Assembly: GCF_022458985.1 (NCBI RefSeq)
Contig: NC_061771.1
Coordinates: 30,740,322-30,804,321, forward strand
DNA: 64,000 bases
Direction of reading: 5' to 3'
Origin: Mugil cephalus
Taxonomy: Eukaryota; Chordata; Actinopteri; Mugiliformes; Mugilidae
The stretch's first letter is position 1; every line of letters begins with the position of its first letter. Of this stretch, positions 1 through 33,704 are shown piece by piece. The notes below the pieces were generated by a model. The model was not told the DNA's origin, did no database searches, and saw only the letters and a list, made by a program, of their open reading frames with translations. Made by a program: the position numbers and the translations under genes.

Positions 1-859
1 GAGTCACATCCACTGCATACTGCTGGACCCTCTTCTGCTCAGCCTCAAGCAGCTTCTTCATGTCTTTACTGAGTGTCTCCTCCAGCTGAGTCACAGCTCT
101 CACCACAGTCCCCTCATATGATGGTGGATGGACGCTGACCTCTGTCCAGTCCTTGGTGGGTGGAGCAGCTTTCAGGGAGGAGAAGCTTTGGAGGAGGTGG
201 AGGTGGTCTTCAGACCGTAAGAGCTGCTTCATCTCAGAGCTCCTCTTCATCAGCTCAGAGACTTCCTGTTCCAGATCTTTGATGAAACCTTCAGCCTGTT
301 TCTCTGTTGTTTTCTGTTTGTCTTCGATCTCCTTTATGAGCTGGTCCAGGCCTCTCTCAACAGACTCCTTCAGAGCAGTGAAGACCTGAACACCTTCTGC
401 TTTCTGTCTGTCTGCAGCATCTTTACTCATCTTCACTGACTCTTTCATCTCCTCAATCTTCAGTCGTCTCTTCTGGATCATCTGCTGAATTTCATCCTCT
501 GTCTTCTCCAGCTCTGCCTTCTTTCCTTCATATTCTTCTTTCAGAGGAACAACATTATGTGTCTTGTGGTTTAATACAGAGCAGAGCATGCAGACACATG
601 CCTGGTCGGTCTTACAGAACAGTTCTAGACGTTTATCATGCTTCCTACACATCCTGTCTTCCAGGTTGTCCACAGGGTGGATAAGCTGATGTCTTTTCAG
701 GCGTGACATTGTCAGATGAGGCTCCAGGTGAGAGTCACAGTAGGAGAGCAGACACACCAGGCAGGACTTCAGGGCCTTCAGTTTGGTTCCAGTGCAGACG
801 TCACAGGGAACTTCTCCTGGTTTGGCAGCTTGTTGCTCTGAGCTGCTGCTGCTGGCTTT
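1..859 (-). pseudogene. RING-less TRIM copy in left palindrome arm, 3' part outside window
   Basis: Read on the minus strand, this is the TRIM family sequence from the Ser-rich linker through B-box (CxxC then CRKHDKPLELFC), the coiled coil and the start of PRY; it runs off the window edge while still open. The first about 80 codons (the whole RING) are missing. The family's internal codons for CTCAACAG now follow a pyrimidine-rich intron end, which gives a possible new splice acceptor at 860-862. Without a RING it could not be a normal E3 ligase; it could at most be a decoy that dimerises through the coiled coil. The mirror copy at 25709-27104 carries an extra A in an A-run that this copy lacks, so this copy may still be open. 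I call it a pseudogene because the only in-frame ATG seen lies inside the B-box region. Confidence 0.72.
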
Positions 860-1048
860 CTGTTGAGATAGAGAGGTTATAGATAATTAAGAGAGAAACA
901 CAGTTTAAGTAGAGATTTATTGTTATTGAACTTGAATTCTGTTCTACAGTTTAATTTAATCACATGTGAGTGGAACTTCCTGTTGGACTGAAGCTCTACG
1001 TTTTGATGCTGGTTGTTTAGCACAGTTAATATTATCAGCTGTACTCAC

Positions 1049-1230
1049 CAGTATTTGAGTCAGATGTTGAGAAAGAACAGATGAACTCAGATAAATTTTC
1101 TTCACACAGAAACACAGAGTCACTCTGACAAACTTTGAGTTTCATTTCAGTAAAGTTAAAGTTAAAGTTTAAATCTAGTCTTTCCAGTTTAGCTCCTCCT
1201 CTGACTGCAGCTCTATTTGTCACAGTTTAT
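1049..1230 (-). other. noncoding leader exon of the RING-less TRIM (approximate 5' end)
   Basis: The sequence ends on the minus strand in ...AAATACTG followed by the donor GTGAGT (1043-1048). It is homologous to the leader exons of every other TRIM copy in the window. The 5' limit is an estimate from where similarity among copies stays strong. The intron to the coding part is 860-1048. Confidence 0.5.
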
Positions 1231-1395
1231 TTCCTGCTTCACGTGGAGGTGTGATCAGTGTAAAATGTGGTGACATTTTTCCTCAGTTTATTTCCTGGTG
1301 TGACTTTATTGCAGCTAATCACACTTCTGGTGGTTGTTGTTTTTTCTGACCTCTGCTGGACACAGAGAAAAACTACCCCAGACTTCACTTTTATT

Positions 1396-1960
1396 CAATT
1401 AACCTTTATTTAACCAGGAAATATCCCATTGAGATTGAGAACCTCTTTTTCAAGGGAGTCCTAGCCAAGAGGCAGCAAACACAAATTACAGTTGCGTATT
1501 TACATAAAAAGGAAACAGAACTAAACACATTGTGAGAAACAAGTGCACATAATGGAATTGACCTCAATAACGCTCAGTTTGGATTTAAAAGTGCTCAAAA
1601 AAAATTAAGTCAGTTAGTTTCCAGTCTTTCTGTAGCATATTCCAAGCATGAGGTGCAGAGTAAACAAAAGCCCTTTTACCCAACTCCGTATGAGCATAAG
1701 GGACAGAAAGCAACAACTGATTTTGAGAACGAAAAGAATGAGGTGCAGCATTTCTCAAAGTAACTAAAGTGCAAATGTACGAATGCAGCAGTCCCAACAT
1801 TGCCTTATAAATGAATTAACGACGACAAACTCTTAGAGCCTGATTTACTTTAATCCCAAATAAGGACCTTATAGATTGTGCGTGCTGTTGGTTTAACGGG
1901 TTGTGGGTCATCTTAAAAGATTGCATGAGCAATTGACAACAGTTGCAAAAGTAGATACCG
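1396..1960 (-). mobile_element. LINE 3' end (L2/CR1-type non-LTR)
   Basis: On the minus strand the tail of a reverse-transcriptase ORF can be read (ELGKRAFVYSAPHAWN, typical of the C-terminus of fish L2/CR1-type LINEs). It is followed by the usual 3' end with 'cctggttaaataaagg'. It is truncated at the 5' side and inactive. The mirror copy is at about 24606-25172. Confidence 0.7.
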
Positions 1961-2189
1961 TTCTATTTAAATGAGGTTTTTTAGCCTTCTATCTCTTTTC
2001 ACCTGACAGAATAAGGCAGAGCAGACTGAATGAAAGCACAAAATGAAATTTTAAGAATTGGAAGCGTTAGTGCAAGAGGCAAATAAACATATTTTGGACT
2101 TAGTGCAAAGAAATATTAACATACCCAGGAGAACTCAAGAAGTACTGACACCAAAAGAATTAAGGTAACATGTAATGCTCTATATATCC

Positions 2190-2530
2190 ACCTCGCATAA
2201 TACACCTAACACACAGACTGCACCAAGAAACAATGATGGTGAATATACTACAGAGAATCCTCTACCATAAACAAATGGAACTGGAAACTTTTGATTACAC
2301 GGAGCACAACACAACAGATCTCAATACAGACATAGATACTGATAATAACTTATTATTTCACATAATGACAGTATGAAAACAATATTAATTCCGTGGGTAA
2401 ACTGTCAATAATACAGTTAAATAACAGAAGTATGTGTAAAAAATTAGATTATATAAACGAGTAACTGAAACTATTCACTCATCCCTTCAGTATCATTCAG
2501 TTTAGTTTGACTGAACGCTAGAACAGGAGA
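2190..2530 (+). mobile_element. LINE ORF2 fragment (start of endonuclease domain)
   Basis: A degenerate frame contains a peptide resembling the N-terminal edge of a LINE AP-endonuclease (pattern LSIIQLNSRSM...THPFS). It is better preserved in the related copy at 44600-45000. No intact ORF remains. It is part of a block of about 800 bp shared by both arms and the 44.6 kb region. Confidence 0.5.
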
Positions 2531-3866
2531 ACAGGAAGTAAATCCAAGTTCAGTGAAACATGTAGATATTTGTTAGCATCCCTGCTAATAAACCACTACC
2601 CCTAACACCAACCAATGAGGATGATGGTCTGCTCCAGATTATTTTATTCCATCCTTCTAGTGTTGTAGAAAACAACAGATAAAACTCTAGAAGTGTCCGA
2701 GATGACCATGTGTATTCAGATTCCTAGTTAAGCTAACAAATGCTAACATTGCCATTGCTGTTGTTTAAAGTTTGTCAGTTCCCCTGAACACATCCATCTG
2801 ATACTTTTCTTTGGTGCATTGAGAACAAGTCAACACATGGCGGCCATCTTTATGTACAGTCTGTTGTCAGGTGCAGTTTACTCATTTTGTTAGCTAGCTG
2901 GATGGCTAACTACAAAAGAAGTGACCTAAAACAGCGTCCCATCTAGGAAACATTCTTTAGAGCTAAAGGGGTCATATGGTATATATATTATAACTTTTTA
3001 TGATGTTTTATCAAGTTCACTTTTCTTTTTAAAGTTACTCAGGTCAAAATTTGAAGTAATATTTCTAATGGACTATTCTTCACTCATTCTTTGGATCATT
3101 AAATTATTTCATTAATCAGCTGTACATCTAAGAAAAGGTATGTTTGTTTTCTATTTCTGTTCAATAAAGTTGAGTTGTTGTTCGATCAGAGTGACTCTGG
3201 AACTTCAGAACCAAAATCTAAGGAAGATGAACTCAGGTGGAGTTACCAGCCTGGGATACCTGGCCGTACTGAGCCTACACAAGTTACACATCCAGGTATT
3301 TGGACTGAACTTGGTCACATGGTCATATGGTCCTGTGGGCTGGACCAGAACAAGAGACTGATGAAAGCTTCTTCTACTTGACCTACCTGCTTCTGTGAGG
3401 GAGGAAGACAAATTGCTTCAAATGACGATCAAACCTCTGTTTTTTAAAATATTTCTGAGCAAAAACTAGTGAATGAAACCATGTTAAAGGTGATGACACC
3501 AGAAATAAACATAGTTTACACAGCCCAGTACACAGTCCTTGGCCTTTAATTGGAGCTTATTTTGCAATCATCACAATTTACACACGAGTGCTTTTCAGGA
3601 TGGATCTGGGGTGAAGAGTTTCATGAATCAACAGTTCAAAACCAGTTCAAAAACCAACAGTTCGAAAAAGGTTTTACCATAATTCACAATAACATGTTTT
3701 TATTCCAACATAATCAGTTTGTACCGTATCTCTCTAATCCATTGATATCTTTGCAATCTCAGCTGTACCAGTATTGTAGTATTAAAGCATATGTGTACAG
3801 AGTGTGAATCAAGAGTGAAGATCAATAAGTTCATTCATTGACCTCAAAGCTTCATCATTAAATGGA
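2531..3866. other. gene-free stretch; TRIM 3' flank at its right end
   Basis: No convincing gene is seen. The stretch from about 3540 to 3866 is the 3' untranslated and flanking part of the TRIM at 3867-5510, with homologues beside other TRIM copies (for example about 12,000-12,140 and 27,340-27,530). A polyadenylation hexamer AATAAA lies on the minus strand at 3699-3704, about 165 bases past the stop codon. 3130-3420 has short open frames on both strands but no recognisable domain. Confidence 0.6.
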
Positions 3867-5510
3867 TCAGACAGTTTGATTGACAGGACAGATGATCAGA
3901 GGTGCAGAGTTTTTACCACCATCATTTGTGCAGGGACTGAAGTATGGATAAAGTTTGTCAGTGAAGGAGCAGTCAGTAAAGGAGTAGATAAGAGCTGCAG
4001 TATCTACATCATGAAAAGAGACCAGACCCTCCTCATAATCCACAAACACCTCCACCTTCTCAGGACGAGAACCAAGAGAGAGACGCACTGGACGACTAGT
4101 ATTGGCTGTATACTTATTTCCATTTCTCAAACTTAGAGACCAGAAACCATTCTTAGAACTTGCTATAATGTCTCCCTTCCTGTTGACTGACTCTCGGGCC
4201 ACTCCTAGATCCCAGTCAGTTTTTCCTTTAACCTGAACCTGAAAGTAAAATCTGCCTGAAGAGAAACTCTTCTTTCCCAAAACACTAACACAATATGAAA
4301 ATCTCTCTGGGTTGTCTGGAAGATTTTTCCTCTCATCACCACAATGAACTTGTTTTCCATCATCAGACAGGATGAGTGCAGGATGTGCTGTATCAGGATC
4401 TAGAGTCACATCCACTGCATACTGCTGGACCCTCTTCAGCTCAGCCTCAACCAGCTTCTTCATGTCTTTACTGAGTGTCTCCTCCAGCTGAGTCACAGCT
4501 CTCCCCACAATCCCCTCATATGATGGTGGATGGACGCTGACCTCTGTCCAGTCCTTGGTGTGTGGAGCATCTTTCAGGGAGGAGAAGCTTTGGAGGAGGT
4601 AGAGGTGGTCTTCAGAGCGTGAGAGCTGCTTTACCTCAGAGCTAATCTTCATCAGCTCAGAGACTTCCTGTTCCAGATCTTTGATGAAACCTTCAGCCTG
4701 TTTCTCTGTTGTTTTCTGTTTGTCTTCGATCTCCTTTATGAGCTGGTCCAGGCCTCTCTCAACAGACTCCTTAAGAGCAGTGAAGACCTGAACACCTTCT
4801 GCTTTCTCTCTGTCTGCAGCAGCTTTACTCATCTTCACTGACTCTTTCATCTCCTCAATCTTCAGTCGTCTCTTCTGGATCATCTGCTGAATTTCATCCT
4901 CTGTCTTCCCCAGCTCTGCCTTCTTTCCTTCATATTCTTCTTTCAGAGGAACAACATCATGTGTCTTGTGGTCTAAAACAGGGCAGAGCATGCAGACACA
5001 TGTCTGGTCAGTCTTACAGAACAGCTCCAGAGGTTTATCGTGCTTCCTACACATCCTGTCTTCCAGGTTGTCCACAGGGTGGATCAGCTGATGTGTTTTC
5101 AGACGTGACACTGTCAGATGAGGCTCCAGGTGAGAGTCACAGTAGGAGAGCAGACACACCAGGCAAGACTTCAGGGCCTTCAGTTTGGTTCCAGTGCAGA
5201 CGTCACAGGGAACTTCTCCTGGTTTGGCAGCTCGTTGTTCTGAGCTGCTGCTTTTGGCGTTCTGTTGAGCTTCATGTCTGAACTCAGCAACCATCTCATG
5301 GATGAAACTGTTGATGTTAAGTTCAGGTCTTTTCACAAACACTTTTTTACACAGTGGACACTTAGATAGATGAGCAGTATCCCAGTGCTCAGTGATGCAG
5401 AGTTTGCAGAAGTTGTGTCCACATGGTGTAGAGACTGGATCAGTGAACACATCCAGACAGATGGAGCACAGAAACTGATCTTCAGATCTCAGAGAGCTGG
5501 CAGCAGACAT
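3867..5510 (-). CDS. TRIM E3 ubiquitin ligase, TRIM39/bloodthirsty-like, intact (left arm)
   Basis: 547 residues in one coding exon. The RING is residues 15-54, with zinc ligands C15, C18, C30, H32, C35, C38, C51 and C54. A B-box1-like zinc cluster starts at C102, and B-box2 is about 154-184 (C154, H157, C165, C173, C176, H181, H184). A coiled coil covers about 190-330, and PRY/SPRY runs from about 366 (LDPDTAHP) to the end, with WDLGV and VDYEEGLVSF motifs. The family joins ubiquitin to targets chosen by SPRY, usually in the cytoplasm; in fish such expansions are tied to innate immunity. The start is the ATG nine bases after the acceptor (TTGTTGTCAG). A leader exon ending at 5712 joins across the intron 5520-5711. 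The protein differs from its mirror copy at 21056-22699 at about nine residues. Family and domains are sure; the exact orthologue is not. Confidence 0.95.
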   Translation of the reverse strand: MSAASSLRSEDQFLCSICLDVFTDPVSTPCGHNFCKLCITEHWDTAHLSKCPLCKKVFVKRPELNINSFIHEMVAEFRHEAQQNAKSSSSEQRAAKPGEVPCDVCTGTKLKALKSCLVCLLSYCDSHLEPHLTVSRLKTHQLIHPVDNLEDRMCRKHDKPLELFCKTDQTCVCMLCPVLDHKTHDVVPLKEEYEGKKAELGKTEDEIQQMIQKRRLKIEEMKESVKMSKAAADREKAEGVQVFTALKESVERGLDQLIKEIEDKQKTTEKQAEGFIKDLEQEVSELMKISSEVKQLSRSEDHLYLLQSFSSLKDAPHTKDWTEVSVHPPSYEGIVGRAVTQLEETLSKDMKKLVEAELKRVQQYAVDVTLDPDTAHPALILSDDGKQVHCGDERKNLPDNPERFSYCVSVLGKKSFSSGRFYFQVQVKGKTDWDLGVARESVNRKGDIIASSKNGFWSLSLRNGNKYTANTSRPVRLSLGSRPEKVEVFVDYEEGLVSFHDVDTAALIYSFTDCSFTDKLYPYFSPCTNDGGKNSAPLIICPVNQTV

Positions 5511-5870
5511 ATCTACACACTGACAACAAGAGAAAAAGAGAGAAAAACACAGTTAAAGTAGAGATTTATTGATTACTGATAAGTTATTGAACTTCTAAAG
5601 AAACATGCCGAGTCAGTGTGAAGTGGAAAGAGTGGAACTTCCTGTTGGACTGAAGCTCTAAGTTTTGATGCTGGTTGTTGAAACACAGTAAATATTATAA
5701 GCTGTACTCACCAGTATTTGAGTCAAATGTTGAGAAAGAACAGATGAACCCAGTTGAGTTTTCTTCAGACAGAAACCAAGAGTATACTGGACTACAGCTC
5801 TGCCGTCGCTCTGACAAACTTTGACTTTCACGTCAGGAAAGTGACGTTTAATCTGGTCGTTACACTTTGA
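5511..5870 (-). other. leader exon and first intron of the 3867-5510 TRIM
   Basis: Coding exon 2 begins at 5519. The intron is 5520-5711, with donor GTGAGT at its 5' end and acceptor CTTGTTGTCAG. The noncoding leader runs from 5712 to roughly 5870; its transcription start is not determinable here. The same leader is found beside the other TRIM copies. 5871-6289 is upstream sequence with no gene seen. Confidence 0.6.
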
Positions 5871-6289
5871 ACTCTCATGCTTCAGTATCAGATGGGATCA
5901 GTTTTAAAATGCACTGACATTTTTGCTTATTTTATTTCCTGGTATGATTTTATTGCAGCTCGTAAAAAGATTGTAAATGTGTTTTTCAGTCCTTATCAGC
6001 TCCATCAGAGTTCAAACTCCTCTGATGGTTGTTGTCTTTTCTTACCTCTGCTGGATATAGAGAAGAACTACACCAGAGTTCACTTTCATTAACAACAACC
6101 ACAAACTCTGAAAGCTTTTCTGAACACACTGACTCTTTTGTAAACTCACATTCAGTTTGAATCATTGTTTCTCTAGGAAGATCAAATGCGTTCTTCAGAT
6201 CAGGTTACATTACTCTTGTGGTGACTTTGTATATTTAGTGCTGTGTATTGGGTACGCGTTGTTCTTGCCATGAAATGAGACGCTAGGAC

Positions 6290-6850
6290 TCATGCCGAGA
6301 ATAAAACAGGAAGTTTCAATAGAAGATCCTTCCAGGCAAAGAGTTTGAAGTCTTCACAGGGAATCAAGTTGAAGAGCTTGTAACTCTGTTGCAATGAGTT
6401 CCACGTTGTCGAGGCAGAGTAAGAAAATGACAGTCTGTCAAGCTCTGTATGGATTGAGGAAACAGTGAGAGTGACATAAATAGTGAAGAGAGTGAGTCCT
6501 AAGACAGAACCTTGTGGAACACTCTTAGCAACATCGGGAAAGCATGAGGAGAGACCACTGAGTTGCACACATTGCTTATGGTTGGAGAGAGATTCTGAGA
6601 ATTAGCCAACAGCTTGGTCTGACAGGCCTATGAGTGACAGACTCTGACATAACATCCCATGGTCAACAGAATCAAATGCCTTGGACAAATCACACTTCAC
6701 ATTGTCCAAGGCTTCCACAACATCATTTAAGACTTTCACGGAAGTAGTATGTACTGTTCTATGTTGCTTCTGAAAACCAGGCTGATGAGGAGAAAAAATA
6801 CAACGCAAACATGATAACTCCTTGATCTGATCATTCAGCAGTCTCAAGTG
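6290..6850 (-). mobile_element. LINE reverse-transcriptase relic with internal deletion
   Basis: Minus-strand frames read RT motifs (DLSKAFDSVDHGML, VPQGSVLGL), then jump straight to the ORF C-terminal signature (TELDRLSFSYSASTTWNSL). The palm core including the YADD/FADD box has therefore been lost. Several frameshifts and stops are present. It is likely from the same broad family as the LINE at 7500-9375. The mirror copy is at 19716-20280. Confidence 0.75.
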
Positions 6851-6879
6851 CCTTAGCTAAGGTATAACTCCTTCACATG

Positions 6880-7215
6880 AACCATCGCGGTAGAGCGGCC
6901 GTCCAATAACTGAAAGGTTGGTGGTTTGATTTCGCCCTATCCATTGTGTCTGTCTTTGTGTCCTTGGGAAAAGACACTTTACCTGCAGTGTGAACTACTA
7001 CTTGTGTATGATTGTGAGTGGCTGATGTTGGTGGGGATTGGAGAGGCCGTATTGGCAGCCATGTTTCCGTCAACCTGCCCCAGGGCATCTGTGACTAGGG
7101 GAATTTACTACCAACAGGGTTGTGACTGTGCGAGCGAATGAACGATGCATTTAGTTGTAAAGTGCTTTGACTGTCGGTGATAAGAAGCTATATAAAACCT
7201 ATGTAATATTATTAT
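6880..7215 (+). mobile_element. tRNA-derived SINE
   Basis: An A-box-like GGTAGAGCGGCCG is followed by a B-box-like GGTTTGATTTC, then the 'gtgtccttgggaaaagacac' module. The end resembles a LINE tail (aagtgctttgactgtc...ctatataaaacc) before an A-rich run. This is the architecture of a common teleost SINE. Same family as the SINEs at 12440, 13573 and 39085. The mirror copy is on the minus strand at about 19350-19690. Confidence 0.7.
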
Positions 7216-7499
7216 TGAAAAAAAAACATAATACACAAACAGAAACAATCACATACAACATGCAGAAGACTTTTGTTTACAAAAACCCACAGTTCCCACT
7301 AATGTTGGTTTAATGTTTGGTACTAGTGTTTCTCTCTGTCCTCTGTCTTATTTTCTTATCTTGGTTTTATTTTGTTCATGGGCTGTAACCTTTGTCCAGG
7401 GTGCAGTCAGTCTCCAGCCAATGACAGCACAGAGTATGACAACAGGACTCCAACAAAACAAATGAGCTGGTCCTGATCAGCTTGAACCCTACTTTCTTA

Positions 7500-9375
7500 A
7501 GTTGGCTGCGGACTTCATTGCTTAGCCTTTATCAATTTTATACAATCTCAGCCTTCTTAATAGTGAGGTCCCAAATATATGGAAGTCTGCCTTCATTCTT
7601 CCCCTGTTAAAAGGGGGAGATCCCACATTAGTGAACAATTATAGGCCGATTTCGAAGTTGTGCATTTTAGGAAAGTTCTTCGAAAGATTTGTCAGCAACC
7701 AATTAAAAGATTTCCTTGAGAAAGCTAATATCTTATCAAGATATCAATCTGGCTTTAGAAAAAAAAAAAAACACAGCACTGTTTCTGCAGCCCTCAAGGT
7801 TTTAAATGACATCATTCAAGCATTGGACTTAAAGAAAATGTGTGTTGCGTTATTTATAGACTTATCCAAGGCATTTGACACTGTTGATCATAATATCCTG
7901 ATTAATATATTGCATAAAATAGACTTATCTGAGCATGCAGTTTCTTGGTTTAAGAATTATTTATTGGATAGATCACAGTGTGTCCAGACGGCAAGGTCCT
8001 CATCAAAAGTTTTTAGGGTTTCAAAGGGGGTACAAGGGCTGCCTTTAGGGTCCATCCTGTTTTCAATCGATAAAAATGATCTTGCGACAATTTGTCGGAT
8101 GCTTTGTATCATTTCTATGCAGATGATACAATAATTTATTGTTTTTCATCGACTGTTGTGCAAGCTTTCACTCTTTTACAATCAGCCTTTGATGTTGTTC
8201 GGGCTCGTCTGCAAAGACTGAAGCTGGTTTTTTGAATACTGATAAGACGAAGGTCATGATTTTTTTCTAGGGCTACTGTGTTGTCAAAAAATCTCCCCTT
8301 TTTAACCTGCCAGGGTACAACCATTGAGCTGGTCTCGTCTTATAAATACCTGGGTTTCCATGTTGATGAACGTCTCTCTTTTAAATACCATATTTCAAGT
8401 CTAGTCTCTAAACTTAAGGTAAAATTAGGCTTTTACTTTAGGAATAGATCTTGCTTCTCTCATGGAGCCAGGAAACGCCTCGTGTCTGCAACCTTTCTTC
8501 CAGTGCTCGATTATGGTGATGTATTGTACATGCATGCACAGTCACATGTTTACGCTCTCTGGATACTGTGTGTCATTGTGCCTTGTGGTTTGTCTGTGGT
8601 TGAAAGAATCTAACCCATCACTGCACTTTGTACAAAAAGGCTGAATGGTCATCCCTGTCTGTTAGAAGATTTACACTTTGGTTAACTTTTATTTACAAAG
8701 CTCTACTTGGTATGGTCCCATCCTATCTCAGAATTTATCTTGTCAGGAACTATGGACGTTATAACCTGCGATCCACTGGGTTCTTTACTTTGACTGTCTC
8801 TCGTGTCTTTACAGAATTGGAGAAAAGGGCATTTCGTTATACTGCTCTCTCTGCATGGAACTCCCTGCTAGATGACTTACAATGGCCGGACCTGATCCCC
8901 CTAGATAGCTTTGTTGAAATTCTTAAAACGAAGGAACTCGAAAGCATTGGACTTTGTCACCATTTTAAATCAGATGTTACATGTCTTTAATCCATCTCTG
9001 ATGTTTCATTTTATTTATCTATTGTTACGTCCCGGCTCGAGAGGCGCAACATAAAAGTGGAGACACATGATGGAGTTTCAAAAAGTATTTATTTTTACAA
9101 GAAGGGACAGAAAAACAGGTGAGCCATGGTGAGCTTCTGCAGTGGAAAAATCATCCCCCAGGCCTCTTCAACAGGCCTTTTAGTCAGTCTTCTCAGGTGT
9201 GGCTGATTAAGGTGATTAGGCACTGGCCAAACACACCTGTATAGCCAGTGAAAATGCAAAGGGCGTAACACTATGTATTTCTATCTCCTGAAATTCTGCT
9301 GCCTCTCGGCCAGGTCGCTTTTGAAAAAGAGATTCTATATCTCAATAAGACTTACCTGGTTAAATAAAGGAAAAA
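7500..9375 (+). mobile_element. LINE (L2/CR1-type) RT region and 3' end, broken
   Basis: The RT domain is readable in pieces: NNYRPISKLCILGKFFERFV, then SGFRKKKKHSTVSAALKVLN, LFIDLSKAFDTVDHNIL, KGVQGLPLGSILFS and the C-terminal TELEKRAFRYTALSAWNSL. Frameshifts separate the pieces near 8130 and 8610. The 3' tail (acctggttaaataaagg) lies at about 9355-9375. A solo LTR (9023-9270) sits inside the 3' untranslated part. It lacks the endonuclease end and is inactive. Confidence 0.85.
9023..9270 (-). mobile_element. solo LTR (248 bp) with 4-bp target duplication, nested in the LINE
   Basis: The element begins TGTTACG and ends CGTAACA, and is flanked on both sides by CTAT (9019-9022 and 9271-9274). 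TG...CA ends plus a 4- to 6-bp target duplication are diagnostic of LTR-retrotransposon integration. A minus-strand AATAAA near the far end sets its orientation. No internal coding region remains, so it is a recombined solo LTR, probably Ty3/gypsy-type. The mirror copy is at 17294-17541. Confidence 0.8.
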
Positions 9376-9499
9376 AAAAATATTCTCGGATTTACTTAAA
9401 TGCAATTTTCTCACCACCACGCCGCCTCTTTTCATTTACTTCAAAGCTCATTCAACCACTTCTGCTCTCTGGACTGGACACTCTCCACATGTAACCTCC

Positions 9500-9840
9500 A
9501 ACCGAGAGTGGATAGATGCAGGTGTTTTCAGATGGACTGGGAAGATATACCCAGTCTCCATAATTATGTATAAAAATCTGTTATGGTCTGATGAGACCAG
9601 AATTGATTCTTTCGCCCAAACTTATCAGAGGTATGTTTGGCTCAACAAGAAAGAGCACTGTAGCCTCTGTGAAGCAAGGTGGTCACTGCATCATGTTCTG
9701 GGGGGCTGCTGATCTTCATCTGGAACCTGGACTCCAAGTCATGAGTCACTTTTTGAACAGAACCTTCAGGTGTTTGTTAGAAAGACAACTTAAAGATAGT
9801 CTTAATCATAACCTATGATTCCATCTGTCTGCTCAGCCTG
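9500..9840 (+). mobile_element. Tc1-type transposase fragment
   Basis: Plus-strand frames give the transposase core: LWSDETRIDSF, then QRYVWLNKKSTVASVKQGG and IMFWG. This is the Tc1 DDE region with a frameshift between the first two parts. No terminal inverted repeats are recognised. The mirror copy is at about 16740-17060 and a related fragment is at 29390-29610. Confidence 0.75.
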
Positions 9841-12439: not shown

Positions 12440-12724
12440 AACAAATCTGTTTTTATATAGTGCTTCAGACACTCAAAGGCACTTCATTCTTCATTCATTC
12501 CCACAGTTATCACTGAGGTCACAGCTGCCCTGGGACAGGCTGACAGAAACGTTGCTGACAATCTGCGCCTTTTGACTCTGACTCGCAACCATACACTAGT
12601 GGAGTTCACACCAGGAGCAAAATGTGTTAAGTGTCTTGCCCAAGGAGACAACAGACAGACTAGGGTTATTGGATGACCACTCTACCGCCAGAGCTACTGC
12701 TGTGGCCGGCAGGTGGTAGAGGTA
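12440..12724 (-). mobile_element. SINE inserted in TRIM 3' end (left arm)
   Basis: A 285-bp insertion with the A-box-like GGTAGAGTGG and the 'cttgggcaagacac' module, ending in ctatataaaaacag on the minus strand. It is flanked by near-identical 7-bp duplications (AGATGAC at 12433-12439, AGATGAT at 12725-12731). It interrupts the last codons of the TRIM fragment beside it. Confidence 0.8.
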
Positions 12725-16740: not shown

Positions 16741-17060
16741 TGGAATCATAGGTTATGATTAAGACTATCTTTAAGTTGTCTTTCTAACAAACACCTGAAG
16801 GTTCTGTTCAAAAACTGACTCATGACTTGGAGTCCAGGTTCCAGATGAAGATCAGCAACCCCCCAGAACATGATGCAGTGACCACCTTGCTTCACAGAGG
16901 CTACAGTGCTCTTTCTTGTTGAGCCAAACATACCTCTGATAAGTTTGGGCGAAAGAATCAATTCTGGTCTCATCAGACCATAACAGATTCTTATACATAA
17001 TTATGGAGACTGGGTATATCTTCCCAGTCCATCTGAAAACACCTGCATCTATCCACTCTC
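16740..17060 (-). mobile_element. Tc1-type transposase fragment (mirror copy)
   Basis: Reverse-complement match of 9500-9840 with the same frameshifted DDE-region peptide (STVASVKQGGHCIMFWG). Inactive. Confidence 0.75.
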
Positions 17061-17189
17061 GGTTGGAGGTTACATGTGGAGAGTGTCCAGTCCAGAGAGC
17101 AGAAGTGGTTGAATGAGCTTTGAAGTAAATGAAAAGAGGCGGCGTGGTGGTGAGAAAATTGCATTTAAGTAAATCCGAGAATATTTTTT

Positions 17190-19065
17190 TTTTCCTTTAT
17201 TTAACCAGGTAAGTCTTATTGAGATATAGAATCTCTTTTTCAAAAGCGACCTGGCCGAGAGGCAGCAGAATTTCAGGAGATAGAAATACATAGTGTTACG
17301 CCCTTTGCATTTTCACTGGCTATACAGGTGTGTTTGGCCAGTGCCTAATCACCTTAATCAGCCACACCTGAGAAGACTGACTAAAAGGCCTGTTGAAGAG
17401 GCCTGGGGGATGATTTTTCCACTGCAGAAGCTCACCATGGCTCACCTGTTTTTCTGTCCCTTCTTGTAAAAATAAATACTTTTTGAAACTCCATCATGTG
17501 TCTCCACTTTTATGTTGCGCCTCTCGAGCCGGGACGTAACAATAGATAAATAAAATGAAACATCAGAGATGGATTAAAGACATGTAACATCTGATTTAAA
17601 ATGGTGACAAAGTCCAATGCTTTCGAGTTCCTTCGTTTTAAGAATTTCAACAAAGCTATCTAGGGGGATCAGGTCCGGCCATTGTAAGTCATCTAGCAGG
17701 GAGTTCCATGCAGAGAGAGCAGTATAACGAAATGCCCTTTTCTCCAATTCTGTAAAGACACGAGAGACAGTCAAAGTAAAGAACCCAGTGGATCGCAGGT
17801 TATAACGTCCATAGTTCTTGACAAGATAAATTCCGAGATAGGATGGGACCATACCAAGTAGAGCTTTGTAAATAAAAGTTAACCAAAGTGTAAATCTTCT
17901 AACAGACAGGGATGACCATTCAGCCTTTTTGTACAAAGTGCAGTGATGGGTTAGATTCTTTCAACCACAGACAAACCACAAGGCACAATGACACACAGTA
18001 TCCAGAGAGCGTAAACATGTGACTGTGCATGCATGTACAATACATCACCATAATCGAGCACTGGAAGAAAGGTTGCAGACACGAGGCGTTTCCTGGCTCC
18101 ATGAGAGAAGCAAGATCTATTCCTAAAGTAAAAGCCTAATTTTACCTTAAGTTTAGAGACTAGACTTGAAATATGGTATTTAAAAGAGAGACGTTCATCA
18201 ACATGGAAACCCAGGTATTTATAAGACGAGACCAGCTCAATGGTTGTACCCTGGCAGGTTAAAACGGGGAGATTTTTTGACAACACAGTAGCCCTAGAAA
18301 AAAATCATGACCTGCGTCTTATCAGTATTCAAAAAACCAGCTTCAGTCTTTGCAGACGAGCCCGAACAACATCAAAGGCTGATTGTAAAAGAGTGAAAGC
18401 TTGCACAACAGTCGATGAAAAACAATAAATTATTGTATCATCTGCATAGAAATGATACAAAGCATCCGACAAATTGTCGCAAGATCATTTTTATAGATTG
18501 AAAACAGGATGGACCCTAAAGGCAGCCCTTGTACCCCCTTTGAAACCCTAAAAACTTTTGATGAGGACCTTGCCATCTGGACACACTGTGATCTATCCAA
18601 TAAATAATTCTTAAACCAAGAAACTGCATGCTCAGATAAGTCTATTTTATGCAATATATTAATCAGGATATTATGATCAACAGTGTCAAATGCCTTGGAT
18701 AAGTCTATAAATAACGCAACACACATTTTCTTTAAGTCCAATGCTTGAATGATGTCATTTAAAACCTTGAGGGCTGCAGAAACAGTGCTGTGTTTTTTTT
18801 TTTTCTAAAGCCAGATTGATATCTTGATAAGATATTAGCTTTCTCAAGGAAATCTTTTAATTGGTTGCTGACAAATCTTTCGAAGAACTTTCCTAAAATG
18901 CACAACTTCGAAATCGGCCTATAATTGTTCACTAATGTGGGATCTCCCCCTTTTAACAGGGGAAGAATGAAGACAGACTTCCATATATTTGGGACCTCAC
19001 TATTAAGAAGGCTGAGATTGTATAAAATTGATAAAGGCTAAGCAATGAAGTCCGCAGCCAACTTA
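17190..19065 (-). mobile_element. LINE RT region and 3' end (mirror copy)
   Basis: Reverse complement of 7500-9375 with the same breaks and the same nested solo LTR. RT motifs DLSKAFDTVDHNIL and the C-terminal ALSAWNSLL are readable on the minus strand. Minor substitutions distinguish it from the left copy (for example, a TGA-creating run difference near 18,800). Confidence 0.85.
17294..17541 (+). mobile_element. solo LTR, 248 bp (mirror copy)
   Basis: TGTTACG...CGTAACA ends, flanked by ATAG on both sides (17290-17293 and 17542-17545). Identical length to 9023-9270. In plus orientation AATAAA precedes the 3' end, as expected for an LTR. Confidence 0.8.
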
Positions 19066-19349
19066 AGAAAGTAGGGTTCAAGCTGATCAGGACCAGCTCA
19101 TTTGTTTTGTTGGAGTCCTGTTGTCATACTCTGTGCTGTCATTGGCTGGAGACTGACTGCACCCTGGACAAAGGTTACAGCCCATGAACAAAATAAAACC
19201 AAGATAAGAAAATAAGACAGAGGACAGAGAGAAACACTAGTACCAAACATTAAACCAACATTAGTGGGAACTGTGGGTTTTCGTAAACAAAAGTCTTCTG
19301 CATGTTGTATGTGATTGTTTCTGTTTGTGTATTATGTTTTTTTTTCAAT
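19066..19349. other. no gene seen (mirror of 7216-7500)
   Basis: Simple non-coding sequence between LINE and SINE relics. It is the reverse complement of the left-arm equivalent. Confidence 0.5.
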
Positions 19350-19690
19350 AATAATATTACATAGGTTTTATATAGCTTCTTATCACCGACAGTCAAAGCA
19401 CTTTACAACTAAATGCATCGTTCATTCGCTCGCACAGTCACAACCTTGTTGGTAGTAAATTCCCCTAGTCACAGATGCCCTGGGGCAGGTTGACGGAAAC
19501 ATGGCTGCCAATACGGCCTCTCCAATCCCCACCAACATCAGCCACTCACAATCATACACAAGTAGTAGTTCACACTGCAGGTAAAGTGTCTTTTCCCAAG
19601 GACACAAAGACAGACACAATGGATAGGGCGAAATCAAACCACCAACCTTTCAGTTATTGGACGACCGCTCTACCGCGATGGTTCATGTGA
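19350..19690 (-). mobile_element. tRNA-derived SINE (mirror copy)
   Basis: Reverse complement of 6880-7215, with an A-rich tail at the low-coordinate end and A/B-box-like motifs near 19,640-19,680. Confidence 0.7.
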
Positions 19691-19715
19691 AGGAGTTATA
19701 CCTTAGCTAAGGCAC

Positions 19716-20280
19716 TTGAGACTGCTGAATGATCAGATCAAGGAGTTTTCATGTTTGCATTGTATTTTGTCTCCTCATCAGTCTGGTTTTCAGAAGCAAC
19801 ATAGAACAGTACATACTACTTCCGTGAAAGTCTTAAATGATGTTGTGGAAGCCTTGGACAATGTGAAGTGTTGTGATTTGTCCAAGGCATTTGATACTGT
19901 TGACCATGGGATGTTATGTCAGAGTCTGTCACTCATAGGCCTGTCAGACCAAGCTGTTGGCTAATTCTCAGAATCTCTCTCCAACCATAAGCAATGTGTG
20001 CAACTCAGTGGTCTCTCCTCATGCTTTCCCGATGTTGCTAAGAGTGTTCCACAAGGTTCTGTCTTAGGACTCACTCTCTTCACTATTTATGTCACTCTCA
20101 CTGTTTCCTCAATCCATACAGAGCTTGACAGACTGTCATTTTCTTACTCTGCCTCGACAACGTGGAACTCATTGCAACAGAGTTACAAGCTCTTCAACTT
20201 GATTCCCTGTGAAGACTTCAAACTCTTTGCCTGGAAGGATCTTCTATTGAAACTTCCTGTTTTATTCTTGGCATGAGTCC
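19716..20280 (+). mobile_element. LINE RT relic (mirror copy)
   Basis: Reverse complement of 6290-6850. The plus strand reads DLSKAFDTVDHGML, VPQGSVLGL and SASTTWNSLQQSYKL. It has the same internal deletion as the left-arm copy and one extra codon near 19,870 (KCCDLSK versus KCDLSK). Confidence 0.75.
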
Positions 20281-20699
20281 TAGCGTCTCATTTCATGGCA
20301 AGAACAGCGCGTACCCAATACACAGCACTCAATATACAAAGTCACCACAAGAGTAATGTAACCTGATCTGAAGAACGCATTTGATCTTCCTAGAGAAACA
20401 ATGATTCAAACTGAATGTGAGTTTACAAAAGAGTCAGTGTGTTCAGAAAAGCTTTCAGAGTTTGTGGTTGTTGTTAATGAAAGTGAAGTCTGGTGTAGTT
20501 CTTCTCTATATCCAGCAGAGGTAAGAAAAGACAACAACCATCAGAGGAGTTTGAACTCTGATGGAGCTGATAAGGACTGAAAAACACATTTACAATCTTT
20601 TTACGAGCTGCAATAAAATCATACCAGGAAATAAAATAAGTAAAAATGTCAGTGCATTTTAAAACTGATCCCATCTGATACTGAAGCATGAGAGTTCAA

Positions 20700-21046
20700 A
20701 GTGTAACGACCAGATTAAACGTCACTTTCCTGACGTGAAAGTCAAAGTTTGTCAGAGTGACGGCAGAGCTGTAGTCCAGTATACTCTTGGTTTCTGTCTG
20801 AAGAAAACTCAACTGGGTTCATCTGTTCTTTCTCAACATTTGACTCAAATACTGGTGAGTACAGCTGATAATATTTACTGTGTTTCAACAACCAGCATCA
20901 AAACTTAGAGCTTCAGTCCAACAGGAAGTTCCACTCTTTCCACTTCACACTGACTCGGCATGTTTCTTTAGAAGTTCAATAACTTATCAGTAATCAATAA
21001 ATCTCTACTTTAACTGTGTTTTTCTCTCTTTTTCTCTTGTTGTCAG
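20700..21046 (+). other. leader exon and first intron of the 21056-22699 TRIM
   Basis: The noncoding leader ends at 20854 (…AAATACTG) before the GTGAGT donor. The intron is 20855-21046, ending TTGTTGTCAG. Its 5' limit near 20,700 is estimated from similarity with the other leaders. Confidence 0.6.
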
Positions 21047-21055
21047 TGTGTAGAC

Positions 21056-22699
21056 ATGTCTGCTGCCAGCTCTCTGAGATCTGAAGATCAGTTTCTGTGC
21101 TCCATCTGTCTGGATGTGTTCACTGATCCAGTCTCTACACCATGTGGACACAACTTCTGCAAACTCTGCATCACTGAGCACTGGGATACTGCTCATCTAT
21201 CTAAGTGTCCAATGTGTAAAAAAGTGTTTGTGAAAAGACCTGAACTTAACATCAACAGTTTCATCCATGAGATGGTTGCTGAGTTCAGACATGAAGCTCA
21301 ACAGAACGCCAACAGCAGCAGCTCAGAACAACAAGCTGCCAAACCAGGAGCAGTTCCCTGTGACGTCTGCACTGGAACCAAACTGAAGGCCCTGAAGTCT
21401 TGCCTGGTGTGTCTGCTGTCCTACTGTGACTCTCACCTGGAGCCTCATCTGACAGTGTCACGTCTGAAAACACATCAGCTGATCCACCCTGTGGACAACC
21501 TGGAAGACAGGATGTGTAGGAAACACGATAAACCTCTGGAGCTGTTCTGTAAGACCGACCAGACATGTGTCTGCCTGCTCTGCCCTGTTTTAGACCACAA
21601 GACACATGATGTTGTTCCTCTGAAAGAAGAATATGAAGGAAAGAAGGCAGAGCTGGGGAAGACAGAAAATGAAATTCAGCAGATGATCCAGAAGAGACGA
21701 CTGAAGATTGAGGAGATGAAAGAGTCAGTGAAGATGAGTAAAGATGCTGCAGACAGAGAGAAAGCAGAAGGTGTTCAGGTCTTCACTGCTCTTAAGGAGT
21801 CTGTTGAGAGAGGCCTGGACCAGCTCATAAAGGAGATCGAAGACAAACAGAAAACAACAGAGAAACAGGCTGAAGGTTTCATCAAAGATCTGGAACAGGA
21901 AGTCTCTGAGCTGATGAAGATTAGCTCTGAGGTAAAGCAGCTCTCACGCTCTGAAGACCACCTCCACCTCCTCCAAAGCTTCTCCTCCCTGAAAGATGCT
22001 CCACACACCAAGGACTGGACAGAGGTCAGCGTCCATCCACCATCATATGAGGGGATTGTGGGGAGAGCTGTGACTCAGCTGGAGGAGACACTCAGTAAAG
22101 ACATGAAGAAGCTGGTTGAGGCTGAGCTGAAGAGGGTCCAGCAGTATGCAGTGGATGTGACTCTAGATCCTGATACAGCACATCCTGCACTCATCCTGTC
22201 TGATGATGGAAAACAAGTTCATTGTGGTGATGAGAGGAAAAATCTTCCAGACAACCCAGAGAGATTTTCATATTGTGTTAGTGTTTTGGGAAAGAAGAGT
22301 TTCTCTTCAGGCAGATTTTACTTTCAGGTTCAGGTTAAAGGAAAAACTGACTGGGATCTAGGAGTGGCCCAAGAGTCAGTCAACAGGAAGGGAGACATTA
22401 TAGCAAGTTCTAAGAATGGTTTCTGGTCTCTAAGTTTGAGAAATGGAAATAAGTATACAGCCAATACTAGTCGTCCAGTGCGTCTCTCTCTTGGTTCTCG
22501 TCCTGAGAAGGTGGAGGTGTTTGTGGATTATGAGGAGGGTCTGGTCTCTTTTCATGATGTAGATACTGCAGCTCTTATCTACTCCTTTACTGACTGCTCC
22601 TTCACTGACAAACTTTATCCATACTTCAGTCCCTGCACAAATGATGGTGGTAAAAACTCTGCACCTCTGATCATCTGTCCTGTCAATCAAACTGTCTGA
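21056..22699 (+). CDS. TRIM E3 ubiquitin ligase, TRIM39/bloodthirsty-like, intact (right arm)
   Basis: 547 residues with all eight RING ligands (C15 to C54), B-box2 (C154 to H184), a coiled coil at about 190-330 and PRY/SPRY from about 366. It is nearly the same protein as 3867-5510. Differences seen by eye are L53M, K86N, R93Q, E99A, M174L and single changes in the coiled coil (D to N, A to D, Y to H) and SPRY (R to Q before ESVNRK). All zinc ligands are conserved. The ATG lies nine bases after the acceptor, and a polyadenylation hexamer follows at 22862-22867. Predicted role: RING-dependent ubiquitin ligase, probably in innate immune regulation. It may be a true second locus or the other haplotype of the left-arm gene. 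Confidence 0.95.
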   Translation: MSAASSLRSEDQFLCSICLDVFTDPVSTPCGHNFCKLCITEHWDTAHLSKCPMCKKVFVKRPELNINSFIHEMVAEFRHEAQQNANSSSSEQQAAKPGAVPCDVCTGTKLKALKSCLVCLLSYCDSHLEPHLTVSRLKTHQLIHPVDNLEDRMCRKHDKPLELFCKTDQTCVCLLCPVLDHKTHDVVPLKEEYEGKKAELGKTENEIQQMIQKRRLKIEEMKESVKMSKDAADREKAEGVQVFTALKESVERGLDQLIKEIEDKQKTTEKQAEGFIKDLEQEVSELMKISSEVKQLSRSEDHLHLLQSFSSLKDAPHTKDWTEVSVHPPSYEGIVGRAVTQLEETLSKDMKKLVEAELKRVQQYAVDVTLDPDTAHPALILSDDGKQVHCGDERKNLPDNPERFSYCVSVLGKKSFSSGRFYFQVQVKGKTDWDLGVAQESVNRKGDIIASSKNGFWSLSLRNGNKYTANTSRPVRLSLGSRPEKVEVFVDYEEGLVSFHDVDTAALIYSFTDCSFTDKLYPYFSPCTNDGGKNSAPLIICPVNQTV

Positions 22700-22861
22700 T
22701 CCATTTAATGATGAAACTTTGAGATCAATGAATGAACTTATTGATCTTCACTCTTGATTCACACTCTGTACACATATGCTTTAATACTACAATACTGGTA
22801 CAGCTGAGATTGCAAAGATATCAATGGATTAGAGAGATACGGTACAAACTGATTATGTTGG

Positions 22862-22867
22862 AATAAA
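22862..22867 (+). other. polyadenylation signal AATAAA of the right-arm TRIM
   Basis: AATAAA about 163 bases after the stop codon, conserved as the mirror hexamer at 3699-3704 (minus strand). Confidence 0.55.
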
Positions 22868-24040
22868 AACATGTTATTGTGAATTATGGTAAAACCTTTT
22901 TCGAACTGTTGGTTTTTGAACTGGTTTTGAACTGTTGATTCATGAAACTCTTCACCCCAGATCCATCCTGAAAAGCACTCGTGTGTAAATTGTGATGATT
23001 GCAAAATAAGCTCCAATTAAAGGCCAAGGACTGTGTACTGGGCTGTGTAAACTATGTTTATTTCTGGTGTCATCACCTTTAACATGGTTTCATTCACTAG
23101 TTTTTGCTCAGAAATATTTTAAAAAACAGATTGAGGTTTGATCGTCATTTGAAGCAATTTGTCTTCCTCCCTCACAGAAGCAGGTAGGTCAAGTAGAAGA
23201 AGCTTTCATCAGTCTCTAGTTCTGGTCCAGCCCACAGGACCATATGACCATGTGACCAAGTTCAGTCCAAATACCTGGATGTGTAACTTGTGTAGGCTCA
23301 GTACGGCCAGGTATCCCAGGCTGGTTACTCCACCTGAGTTCATCTTCCTTAGATTTTGGTTCTGAAGTTCCAGAGTCACTCTGATCGAACAACAACTCAA
23401 CTTTATTGAACAGAAATAGAAAACAAACATACCTTTTCTTAGATGTACAGCTGATTAATGAAATAATTTAATGATCCAAAGAATGAGTGAAGAATAGTCC
23501 ATTAGAAATATTACTTCAAATTTTGACCTGAGTAACTTTAAAAAGAAAAGTGAACTTGATAAAACATCATAAAAAGTTATAATATATATACCATATGACC
23601 CATTTAGCTCTAAAGAATGTTTCCTAGATGGGACGCTGTTTTAGGTCACTTCTTTTGTAGTTAGCCATCCAGCTAGCTAACAAAATGAGTAAACTGCACC
23701 TGACAACAGACTGTACATAAAGATGGCCGCCATGTGTTGACTTGTTCTCAATGCACCAAAGAAAAGTATCAGATGGATGTGTTCAGGGGAACTGACAAAC
23801 TTTAAACAACAGCAATGGCAATGTTAGCATTTGTTAGCCTAACTAGGAATCTGAATACACATGGTCATCTCTGACACTTCTAGAGTTTTATCTGTTGTTT
23901 TCTACAACACTAGAAGGATGGAATAAAATAATCTGGAGCAGACCATCATCCTCATTGGTTGGTGTTAGGGGTAGTGGTTTATTAGCAGGGATGCTAACAA
24001 ATATCTACATGTTTCACTGAACTTGGATTTACTTCCTGTT
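22868..24040. other. gene-free stretch (mirror of 2531-3700)
   Basis: TRIM 3' flank, then unrecognised sequence. Short open frames at 23,159-23,430 have no domain. Confidence 0.5.
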
Positions 24041-24044
24041 CTCC

Positions 24045-24377
24045 TGTTCTAGCGTTCAGTCAAACTAAACTGAATGATACTGAAGGGATGAGTGAATAGT
24101 TTCAGTTACTCGTTTATATAATCTAATTTTTTACACATACTTCTGTTATTTAACTGTATTATTGACAGTTTACCCACGGAATTAATATTGTTTTCATACT
24201 GTCATTATGTGAAATAATAAGTTATTATCAGTATCTATGTCTGTATTGAGATCTGTTGTGTTGTGCTCCGTGTAATCAAAAGTTTCCAGTTCCATTTGTT
24301 TATGGTAGAGGATTCTCTGTAGTATATTCACCATCATTGTTTCTTGGTGCAGTCTGTGTGTTAGGTGTATTATGCGA
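24045..24377 (-). mobile_element. LINE endonuclease-start fragment (mirror copy)
   Basis: Reverse complement of 2190-2530. Confidence 0.5.
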
Positions 24378-24605
24378 GGTGGATATATAGAGCATTACAT
24401 GTTACCTTAATTCTTTTGGTGTCAGTACTTCTTGAGTTCTCCTGGGTATGTTAATATTTCTTTGCACTAAGTCCAAAATATGTTTATTTGCCTCTTGCAC
24501 TAACGCTTCCAATTCTTAAAATTTCATTTTGTGCTTTCATTCAGTCTGCTCTGCCTTATTCTGTCAGGTGAAAAGAGATAGAAGGCTAAAAATCCTCATT
24601 TAAAT

Positions 24606-25172
24606 ATAACGGTATCTACTTTTGCAACTGTTGTCAATTGCTCATGCAATCTTTTAAGATGACCCACAACGCGTTAAACCAACAGCACGCACAATCTATA
24701 AGGTCCTTATTTGGGATTAAAGTAAATCAGGCTCTAAGAGTTTGTCGTCGTTAATTCATTTATAAGGCAATGTTGGGACTCCTGCATTCGTACATTTGCA
24801 CTTTAGTTACTTTGAGAAATGCTGCACCTCATTCTTTTCGTTCTCAAATCAGTTGTTGCTTTCTGTCCCTTATGCTCATACGGAGTTGGGTAAAAGGGCT
24901 TTTGTTACTCTGCACCTCATGCTTGGAATATGCTACAGAAAGACTGGAAACTAACTGACTTAATTTTTTTTGCGCACTTTTAAATCCAAACTGAGAGTTA
25001 TTGAGGTCAATTCCATTATGTGCACTTGTTTCTCACAATGTGTTTAGTTCTGTTTCCTTTTTATGTAAATACGCAACTGTAATTTGTGTTTGCTGCCTCT
25101 TGGCTAGGACTCCCTTGAAAAAGAGGTTCTCAATCTCAATGGGATATTTCCTGGTTAAATAAAGGTTAATTG
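24606..25172 (+). mobile_element. LINE 3' end (mirror copy)
   Basis: Reverse complement of 1396-1960, ending cctggttaaataaagg. The RT C-terminal ORF is shifted relative to the left copy by a small indel near 24,850. Confidence 0.7.
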
Positions 25173-25344
25173 AATAAAAGTGAAGTCTGGGGTAGTTCTT
25201 CTCTGTGTCCAGCAGAGGTCAGAAAAAACAACAACCACCAGAAGTGTGATTAGCTGCAATAAAGTCACACCAGGAAATAAACTGAGTAAAAATGTCACCA
25301 CATTTTACACTGATCACACCTCCACGTGAAGCAGGAAATAAACT

Positions 25345-25519
25345 GTGACAAATAGAGCTGCAGTCAGAGGAGGAGCTAAACTGGAAAGACTAGATTTAAA
25401 CTTTAACTTTAACTTTACTGAAATGAAACTCAAAGTTTGTCAGAGTGACTCTGTGTTTCTGTGTGAAGAAAATTTATCTGAGTTCATCTGTTCTTTCTCA
25501 ACATCTGACTCAAATACTG
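25345..25519 (+). other. noncoding leader exon of the RING-less TRIM (mirror copy)
   Basis: It ends AAATACTG before the GTGAGT donor at 25520. The intron is 25520-25708. The 5' end is approximate. Confidence 0.5.
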
Positions 25520-25708
25520 GTGAGTACAGCTGATAATATTAACTGTGCTAAACAACCAGCATCAAAACGTAGAGCTTCAGTCCAACAGGAAGTTCCACTC
25601 ACATGTGATTAAATTAAACTGTAGAACAGAATTCAAGTTCAATAACAATAAATCTCTACTTAAACTGTGTTTCTCTCTTAATTATCTATAACCTCTCTAT
25701 CTCAACAG

Positions 25709-27104
25709 AAAGCCAGCAGCAGCAGCTCAGAGCAACAAGCTGCCAAACCAGGAGAAGTTCCCTGTGATGTCTGCACTGGAACCAAACTGAAGGCCCTGAA
25801 GTCCTGCCTGGTGTGTCTGCTCTCCTACTGTGACTCTCACCTGGAGCCTCATCTGACAATGTCACGCCTGAAAAGACATCAGCTTATCCACCCTGTGGAC
25901 AACCTGGAAGACAGGATGTGTAGGAAGCATGATAAACCTCTAGAACTGTTCTGTAAGACCGACCAGGCATGTGTCTGCATGCTCTGCTCTGTATTAAACC
26001 ACAAGACACATAATGTTGTTCCTCTGAAAGAAGAATATGAAGGAAAGAAGGCAGAGCTGGAGAAGACAGAGGATGAAATTCAGCAGATGATCCAGAAGAG
26101 ACGACTGAAGATTGAGGAGATGAAAGAGTCAGTGAAGATGAGTAAAGATGCTGCAGACAGACAGAAAGCAGAAGGTGTTCAGGTCTTCAGTGCTCTGAAG
26201 GAGTCTGTTGAGAGAGACCTGGACCAGCTCATAAAGGAGATCGAAGACAAACAGAAAAAAAACAGAGAAACAGGCTGAAGGTTTCATCAAAGATCTGGAA
26301 CAGGAAGTCTCTGAGCTGATGAAGAGGAGCTCGGAGGTAAAGCAGCTCTCACGCTCTGAAGACCACCTCCACCTCCTCCAAAGCTTCTCCTCCCTGAAAG
26401 CTGCTCCACCCACCAAGGACTGGACAGAGGTCAGCGTTCGTCCACCATCATATGAGGGGACTGTGGTGAGAGCTGTGACTCAGCTGGAGGAGACACTCAG
26501 TAAAGACAAGAAGAAGCTGGTTGAGGCTGAGCTGAAGAGGGTCCAGCAGTATGCAGTGGATGTGACTCTAGATCCTGATACAGCACATCCTAAACTCATC
26601 CTGTGTGATGATGGAAAACAAGTTCACTGTGGTGACGTGAGGAAGAATCTTCCAGACAACCCAGAGAGATTTTCTAAATGTCCATGTGTTTTTGGAAAGA
26701 AGAGTTTCTCCTCAGGCAGATTTTACTTTCAGGTTCAGCTTGAAGGAAAGACTGAATGGGATCTAGGAGTGGCCAGAGAATCAATCATCAGGAAGGGAAG
26801 CATCACTCTGAGCCCTCAGAACGGTTACTGGACTGTAAGTTTGAGAAATGGAAATAAATATGCTGCTTTTGCTGGTCCTCCAGTGTGTCTCTCTCTTGGT
26901 TCTCGTCCTGAGAAGGTGGGGGTGTTTGTGGATTATGAGAGGGGTCTGGTCTCATTTCATGATGTAGATACTGCAGCTCTTATCTACTCCTTTACTGGCT
27001 GCTCCTTCAATGACAAACTTTATCCATACTTCAGTCCTGGTGTGAATGATGGTGGTAAAAACTCTGCACCTCTGATCATCTGTGCTGTCAATCAAACTGT
27101 CTGA
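25709..27104 (+). pseudogene. RING-less TRIM pseudogene with frameshift (right arm)
   Basis: It starts after a cryptic acceptor (CTATCTCAACAG) made by deletion of the RING-coding part. B-box2 and the coiled coil read in one frame to about 26,255, where the A-run in ACAGAAAAAAAACAG has one more base than in the family and shifts the frame. The second frame then continues through the rest of the coiled coil and a complete PRY/SPRY (LDPDTAHPKLIL, WDLGVARESI, VDYERGLVSF, ending CAVNQTV). Missing: all RING ligands. A polyadenylation AATAAA follows near 27,246. A sequencing error in the homopolymer cannot be excluded, since the left-arm copy lacks the extra base. Confidence 0.85.
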
Positions 27105-29610: not shown

Positions 29611-29719
29611 TTGAATATGTTTTAAAATAATGTTTTACTTTTTAAAATAAACGTACACAGGTTCTGATCAGATGATCACTTTGATTTGTTCCACATAACA
29701 TAAACCTGTTCATTTCACA

Positions 29720-30830: not shown

Positions 30831-30839
30831 CTACATGGA

Positions 30840-31413: not shown

Positions 31414-31422
31414 TGTGTAGAC

Positions 31423-33700: not shown

Positions 33701-33704
33701 ATTT

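Follow-up and report, generated by a model that had tools for sequence, protein, structure and literature searches.

Teleost genomes carry clusters of class IV TRIM genes, such as the finTRIM, bloodthirsty/trim39-like (btr) and trim35/hltr clusters, and the parts of two reports on which we draw (PMC2657112, PMC3137616) describe fish TRIM clusters as usually running in one orientation, with similar neighbours and some broken copies. We analysed a locus of this kind in Mugil cephalus, in a 64,000-nucleotide stretch of chromosome C2 (C2:30740322-30804321; hereafter the window), whose TRIM copies are like those of the named clusters in their RING, B-box, coiled coil and PRY-SPRY domains and whose neighbouring copies are likewise similar and in part broken. 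At the start of the window, the published assembly presents what the initial annotation described as a giant inverted repeat (1..26570). Our analysis indicates that this palindrome is probably a product of scaffolding, and that the locus most likely consists of TRIM units in direct tandem, with one short contig, contig B, placed backwards. We infer the misorientation of contig B from the content of the contigs, and a true mirror-image duplication in the genome is unlikely.

Positions are counted from the first base of the window, with negative coordinates upstream of its start; flanking sequence of 100 kb on the left side, 60 kb on the right side and a later 5 kb was also covered. An N-run scan found four gaps in the 224 kb around the window, each of exactly 500 N, so the assembly does not give the true gap sizes; 500 N is a filler length of Hi-C scaffolders. 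Contig A is gap-free from at least -99999 to 12937, and its end (1..12937) holds the left arm of the palindrome. It is followed by the gap at the palindrome centre (12938..13437), by contig B (13438..40674; 27,237 bp), by a second gap that closes off contig B on its far side (40675..41174), and by contig C, which occupies the remainder of the window (41175..64000) and runs to 75972.

The inverted match between the arms is real. Positions 1-11097 matched the reverse complement of 26568-15461 at 99.17% identity (11,111 columns) and 11096-12859 that of 15198-13438 at 97.85% (1,766 columns). Among 25-mers of the right arm, 10,549 of 13,107 were found in the left arm, and none in each of five mononucleotide shuffles. 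The arms proper, which we call units U2 (407..12859) and U3 (13438..26162), differ by 94 substitutions in 12,445 sites (0.76%). A solo long terminal repeat (LTR) pair noted at 9023-9270 and 17294-17541 is identical at 248 of 248 bases, and the two TRIM frames noted at 3867-5510 (minus strand) and 21056-22699 (plus strand) are indeed both open across 547 amino acids and nine residues apart. The proposed extent and symmetry hold only in part. Near-identity stops at about 406/26162, within a broken TRIM copy and not at the window edge, and the substitution rate outside this point is 3.20% (13/406). The rule that a feature at x recurs at 26,566-x applies up to about 11,095; beyond that, the partner is shifted by a 264-bp segment of the right arm (15198-15461), so that 12859 pairs with 13438.

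Near-identical inverted arms of this kind could come from a foldback read, through a missed adapter or a template switch, and such artefacts of 7-17 kbp are reported as false duplications in the part of the source used here (PMC9516828). Yet 54 transitions and 53 transversions separate the arms, in addition to the 264-bp segment, the centre is a scaffold gap with no read-through, and contig B runs more than 13 kb beyond the arm. We rejected the foldback explanation on the arm differences, and it is scarcely credible. A true inverted duplication, in which U2 and U3 would face each other in the genome itself and contigs A and B, with the gap between them, would be correctly ordered and oriented, has the published arrangement on its side. 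However, the centre is entirely N, with no read-level sequence across it, and the part of the arm closest to it is the most diverged (1.82%, or 32/1,759, at 11096-12859, vs 0.58%, or 62/10,686, at 407-11095).

The surroundings of the left arm bear on the same question. A third copy, U1 (about -12517..-300), lies directly upstream of the window on the same gap-free contig A and in direct orientation to U2: -12517..-2282 matches 868..11097 in direct orientation (98.2%, 10,263 columns), and -2134..-300 does so with 11096..12937 (98.6%). The left arm is therefore the second of two units in direct tandem, the period being about 13.4 kb. Portions of the unit, searched against the whole genome (24 chromosomes, 634.8 Mb in total), returned three near-identical copies, U1, U2 and U3; other matches were at most 90% identical and covered shorter stretches. 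The 264-bp segment is present in U3, missing from U2 and partly present in U1. As scaffolded, every inverted unit pair spans a gap, the only whole pair within a contig (U1/U2) is direct, and both ends of an inverted block would need to fall in gaps, all of which argues against a true inversion.

Nor does the inverted pair stand out from the direct one. Outside the TRIMs, over 10,038 sites, we counted 85 differences between U1 and U2, 89 between U1 and U3, and 76 between U2 and U3; the sites at which one unit was odd numbered 49, 36 and 40 for U1, U2 and U3 (chi-square p = 0.35), and the U1-U2 distance exceeded the U2-U3 distance by 0.09%, with a 95% block-bootstrap interval (-0.15 to 0.32) that spans 0. 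The units are thus about equidistant, and these counts do not show U2 and U3 to be more alike than the direct pair. The initial annotation had offered a recent palindromic duplication able to undergo arm-to-arm gene conversion. The first suggestion is not supported, since a direct tandem unit belonging to the same age class adjoins the left arm on one gap-free contig; as to the second, no extra arm-to-arm conversion or homogenisation of the inverted pair was seen when U1, U2 and U3 were compared outside the TRIMs. With the TRIMs included, the whole alignment gave 137 odd sites in U1, 69 in U2 and 72 in U3, an excess in U1 that arises because its middle TRIM has changed over about 4500-5500 and is frame-broken. 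In this broken TRIM (-9512..-7876), the 5' part is unlike U2 and U3 for about 1 kb between closely matching flanks, as though sequence from other TRIM copies had been written over it; no single donor of the changed part stood out in 150-column steps.

The junction of U1 and U2 is marked by a broken TRIM open reading frame (ORF) on the minus strand (-518..823, of which 1..823 lies in the window). This junction TRIM was compared with two others, the start TRIM of U1 (U1start) and a broken unit-end TRIM on the plus strand of contig B (37894..39092) beside a partial unit, U4 (38874..40674), counts being restricted to the shared TRIM stretch -510..678 so that unrelated flanks were excluded. From -510 to 351, 81 of 83 informative sites match the end TRIM, whereas from 491 to 678 all 22 match U1start; between 351 and 491 there are two informative sites, one each way. 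The junction TRIM is 99.6% identical to the end TRIM left of position 400 and 91.7% right of it; for the start TRIM, the two values are 90.9% and 99.6%. The repeat at the junction is thus of end type on one side and of start type on the other, with a crossover interval of 140 bp (351-491). A chimera of this form is what unequal crossing-over should produce when direct TRIM copies lie on either side of the unit.

The content of contig B suggests where it belongs. Contig A stops inside a TRIM after U2 (the 3' end of a minus-strand copy, 12717..12937), and contig B begins and ends in unit-end copies, the first being the 3' end of a plus-strand TRIM copy (13438..13580) homologous to 12717-12859. 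The partial unit U4 is oriented like U3, matching 12937-11129 inverted (98.2%) and 13438-15165 directly (98.7%), and the end TRIM, the source type of the junction's left half, adjoins it inwards. Contig B therefore holds the piece expected after the last unit of contig A. The last 1,809 bp of contig A and the first 1.8 kb of a flipped contig B form an end-to-end dovetail at 98.2%, and U3, inverted as scaffolded, becomes direct after the flip.

We propose that a 13.4-kb unit with one TRIM E3-ligase gene, bounded by further TRIM copies, is repeated in direct tandem, and that the array grew by unequal crossing-over between unit-start and unit-end TRIMs, leaving the chimeric TRIM seen at the U1/U2 junction. 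The near-identical units broke the assembly, as the contig ends within unit copies show, and the scaffolder would then have inserted the 27-kb contig B backwards, making a mirror image out of a direct repeat. The flipped order would read U1 - junction TRIM - U2 / partial U4 - end TRIM - spacer - start TRIM - U3. With contig B flipped, the palindrome disappears, and nothing would lead one to expect gene conversion from arm to arm; exchange would be as usual in direct tandem arrays.

Orientation statistics across the contigs are consistent with a misplaced piece. Of the segments shared by contigs A and B, 67 of 80 are inverted, as are 21 of 22 shared by B and C, compared with 0 of 16 within B; of those shared by A and C, 90 of 120 are direct. 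TRIM copies lie on the minus strand in 10 of 11 cases on contig A (one row, at -41722, being a distant copy of 29% identity) and in 3 of 3 on C, and on the plus strand in 5 of 5 on B, 5 of 5 on D and 2 of 2 on E. Neighbouring copies change strand in 2 of 21 pairs within contigs and in 3 of the 4 pairs that span a gap (Fisher p = 0.016). Short contigs are those misoriented by scaffolders using chromosome conformation capture (Hi-C), according to the part of the source available (PMC7672694).

Strand counts alone do not decide which contig is wrong, and we set them aside as a sole criterion. Somewhere in the TRIM cluster, a strand switch either is real or has been produced. Among the matches listed from the genome search, 8 of 9 TRIM loci between 30.659 Mb and the contig A end lie on the minus strand. 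Several points weigh against the misorientation of contig B. The contigs beyond C are plus-strand like B, with 25 of 26 loci on the plus strand at 30.804-31.34 Mb among the matches listed; by strand, flipping C instead of B is equally economical, and the palindrome would then stay. U2 and U4 differ at 25 of 1,801 sites, so the dovetail is not one and the same sequence and U4 is another allele or another unit. Across the four unit-end copies, the commonest split sets U1 and U2 against U3 and U4 (6 sites, the others having 3 and 0), which would also fit contigs from two haplotypes. The broken TRIM at the start of U3 (U3start; 25745..27101, plus strand) has a 5' half in common with U1start and the junction TRIM (99.3-99.6%) and a different 3' half (91-92%), which implies at least one more exchange in its history, so that U3 did not come from the same single crossover.

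The same strand pattern is what a true inversion would call upon. The switch from minus on the left to plus at nearly all listed loci beyond the window could fall at the A/B gap, with contig C misoriented, and an inverted finTRIM duplication with twin genes on zebrafish chromosome 23 is reported in the portion of PMC2657112 to which we refer. A genuine inversion point at the A/B gap, at which two units of a young TRIM array stand head to head between a minus block and a plus block and contig C rather than B is misplaced, nonetheless has little probability in our assessment, and the inverted duplication as published is in our view quite improbable. The chimera and the dovetail favour flipping contig B, and the direct array with a reversed contig B thus stays our preferred account.

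An alternative that keeps the assembly at fault is that contig B comes from the other haplotype, with U3 and U4 allelic to U2 and U1, the two haplotypes set apart by about 10.8 kb of spacer, and the contig kept as a false duplication in head-to-head position. Contig A and the flipped contig B are collinear (U1 end - TRIM - U2 vs U4 - TRIM - spacer - TRIM - U3), and in unit coordinates the points at which they break off lie within 78 bp of each other; a gap between the copies on one scaffold, as found here, is listed as a mark of false duplication in the part of PMC9516828 we cite. A comparable situation occurs further along the cluster, where the end of contig D (C2:30831369-30848342; 91048-108021) and the start of contig E (30848843-30865655; 108522-125334) match directly over about 17 kb across a 500-N gap. 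The match begins at the first base of E and ends at the last base of D, taking in the last 17 kb of D and the first 16.8 kb of E, in pieces of 98.6% and 98.2% identity (100 substitutions in the 14,866-column part and 34 in 1,985 columns). It is probably an unmerged haplotype overlap, or else a tandem copy broken at a boundary. Of one TRIM, the copy in D (97803) is intact and the copy in E (115298) has a broken frame. Gaps in the TRIM cluster thus attract redundancy, and contig B could likewise be allelic to A; the U2-U3 divergence of 0.76% is similar to that of the D/E pair.

On the other hand, U2 and U3 are not clearly closer than U1 and U2, which sit in cis on one contig, and contig B adds sequence beyond A. 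Its spacer (27129..37894), which contains a TRIM copy (31423-33063) with one in-frame stop, was searched over 8.0 kb (27300-30700 and 33200-37800), and no near-identical copy was found elsewhere in the 24 chromosomes. This weakens the view of contig B as a plain redundant haplotig, and the haplotype explanation is unlikely, though not negligible. The initial annotation had also allowed that two haplotypes were joined head to head by the assembler. Its first element agrees with our results, in that an assembly join probably creates the palindrome (a 500-N centre, with the right arm on a small contig gapped at both ends); the two-haplotype element stands only as the rival just described. Within the spacer, pieces of 33200-37800 are 77-85% identical to a 4-kb stretch at C1 52930467-52934510, a retroelement remnant by appearance.

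The two intact middle TRIM genes, U2mid (3867..5510, minus strand, single-exon) and U3mid (21056..22699, plus strand), differ at 13 nucleotides, comprising nine nonsynonymous and four synonymous codons (dN 0.0071, dS 0.0112). Positive selection was considered and set aside, 13 changes being too few for any statement. Four of five proteins scanned had class IV TRIM domains above the Pfam cut-off, and the fifth frame (31822-33066) is truncated and without a RING. By their sequence, these copies are presumably bloodthirsty-like (btr). Elsewhere in the cluster, two plus-strand TRIMs 7.6 kb apart (C2:30879267-30880883 and 30886872-30888488) have equal bit scores (1074.9) and query identity and are perhaps a very recent tandem pair. 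Contig C holds a tandem repeat of a 32-bp unit at 52837-53320 (15.5 copies), and the plus strand of 54001-56000 is strongly purine-biased (GC skew 0.24, AT skew 0.23).

If read as drawn, the palindrome would point to gene conversion between the arms of an immune-gene block. The evidence points instead to a commonplace process, in which a direct TRIM array has undergone unequal crossing-over. In the 229 kb examined, near-identical copies lie on either side of two of the four gaps (A/B and D/E), so this assembly should not be used to count the TRIM copies of the cluster or their orientations. The apparent palindrome should not be taken as a real mirror-image duplication unless raw reads prove so.

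Among known systems, gene-conversion palindromes, such as those of primate Y chromosomes, have long inverted arms of more than 99% identity that carry genes, a likeness this locus recalls. It differs from them in having no sequenced centre and an inverted pair no more similar than the direct pair. With the false duplications known in Vertebrate Genomes Project (VGP) terms as heterotype, it shares near-identical copies on one scaffold with a gap between them, the difference being that these copies are inverted and have a direct copy beside them in a gap-free contig. As in many medaka finTRIMs, for which the same is reported, the ORF of these Mugil TRIM copies lies in a single exon. The likeness to misoriented short contigs in Hi-C scaffolds, recognised here from sequence alone, consists in a 27-kb contig between two fixed-size gaps, with content opposite in orientation to its neighbours A and C.

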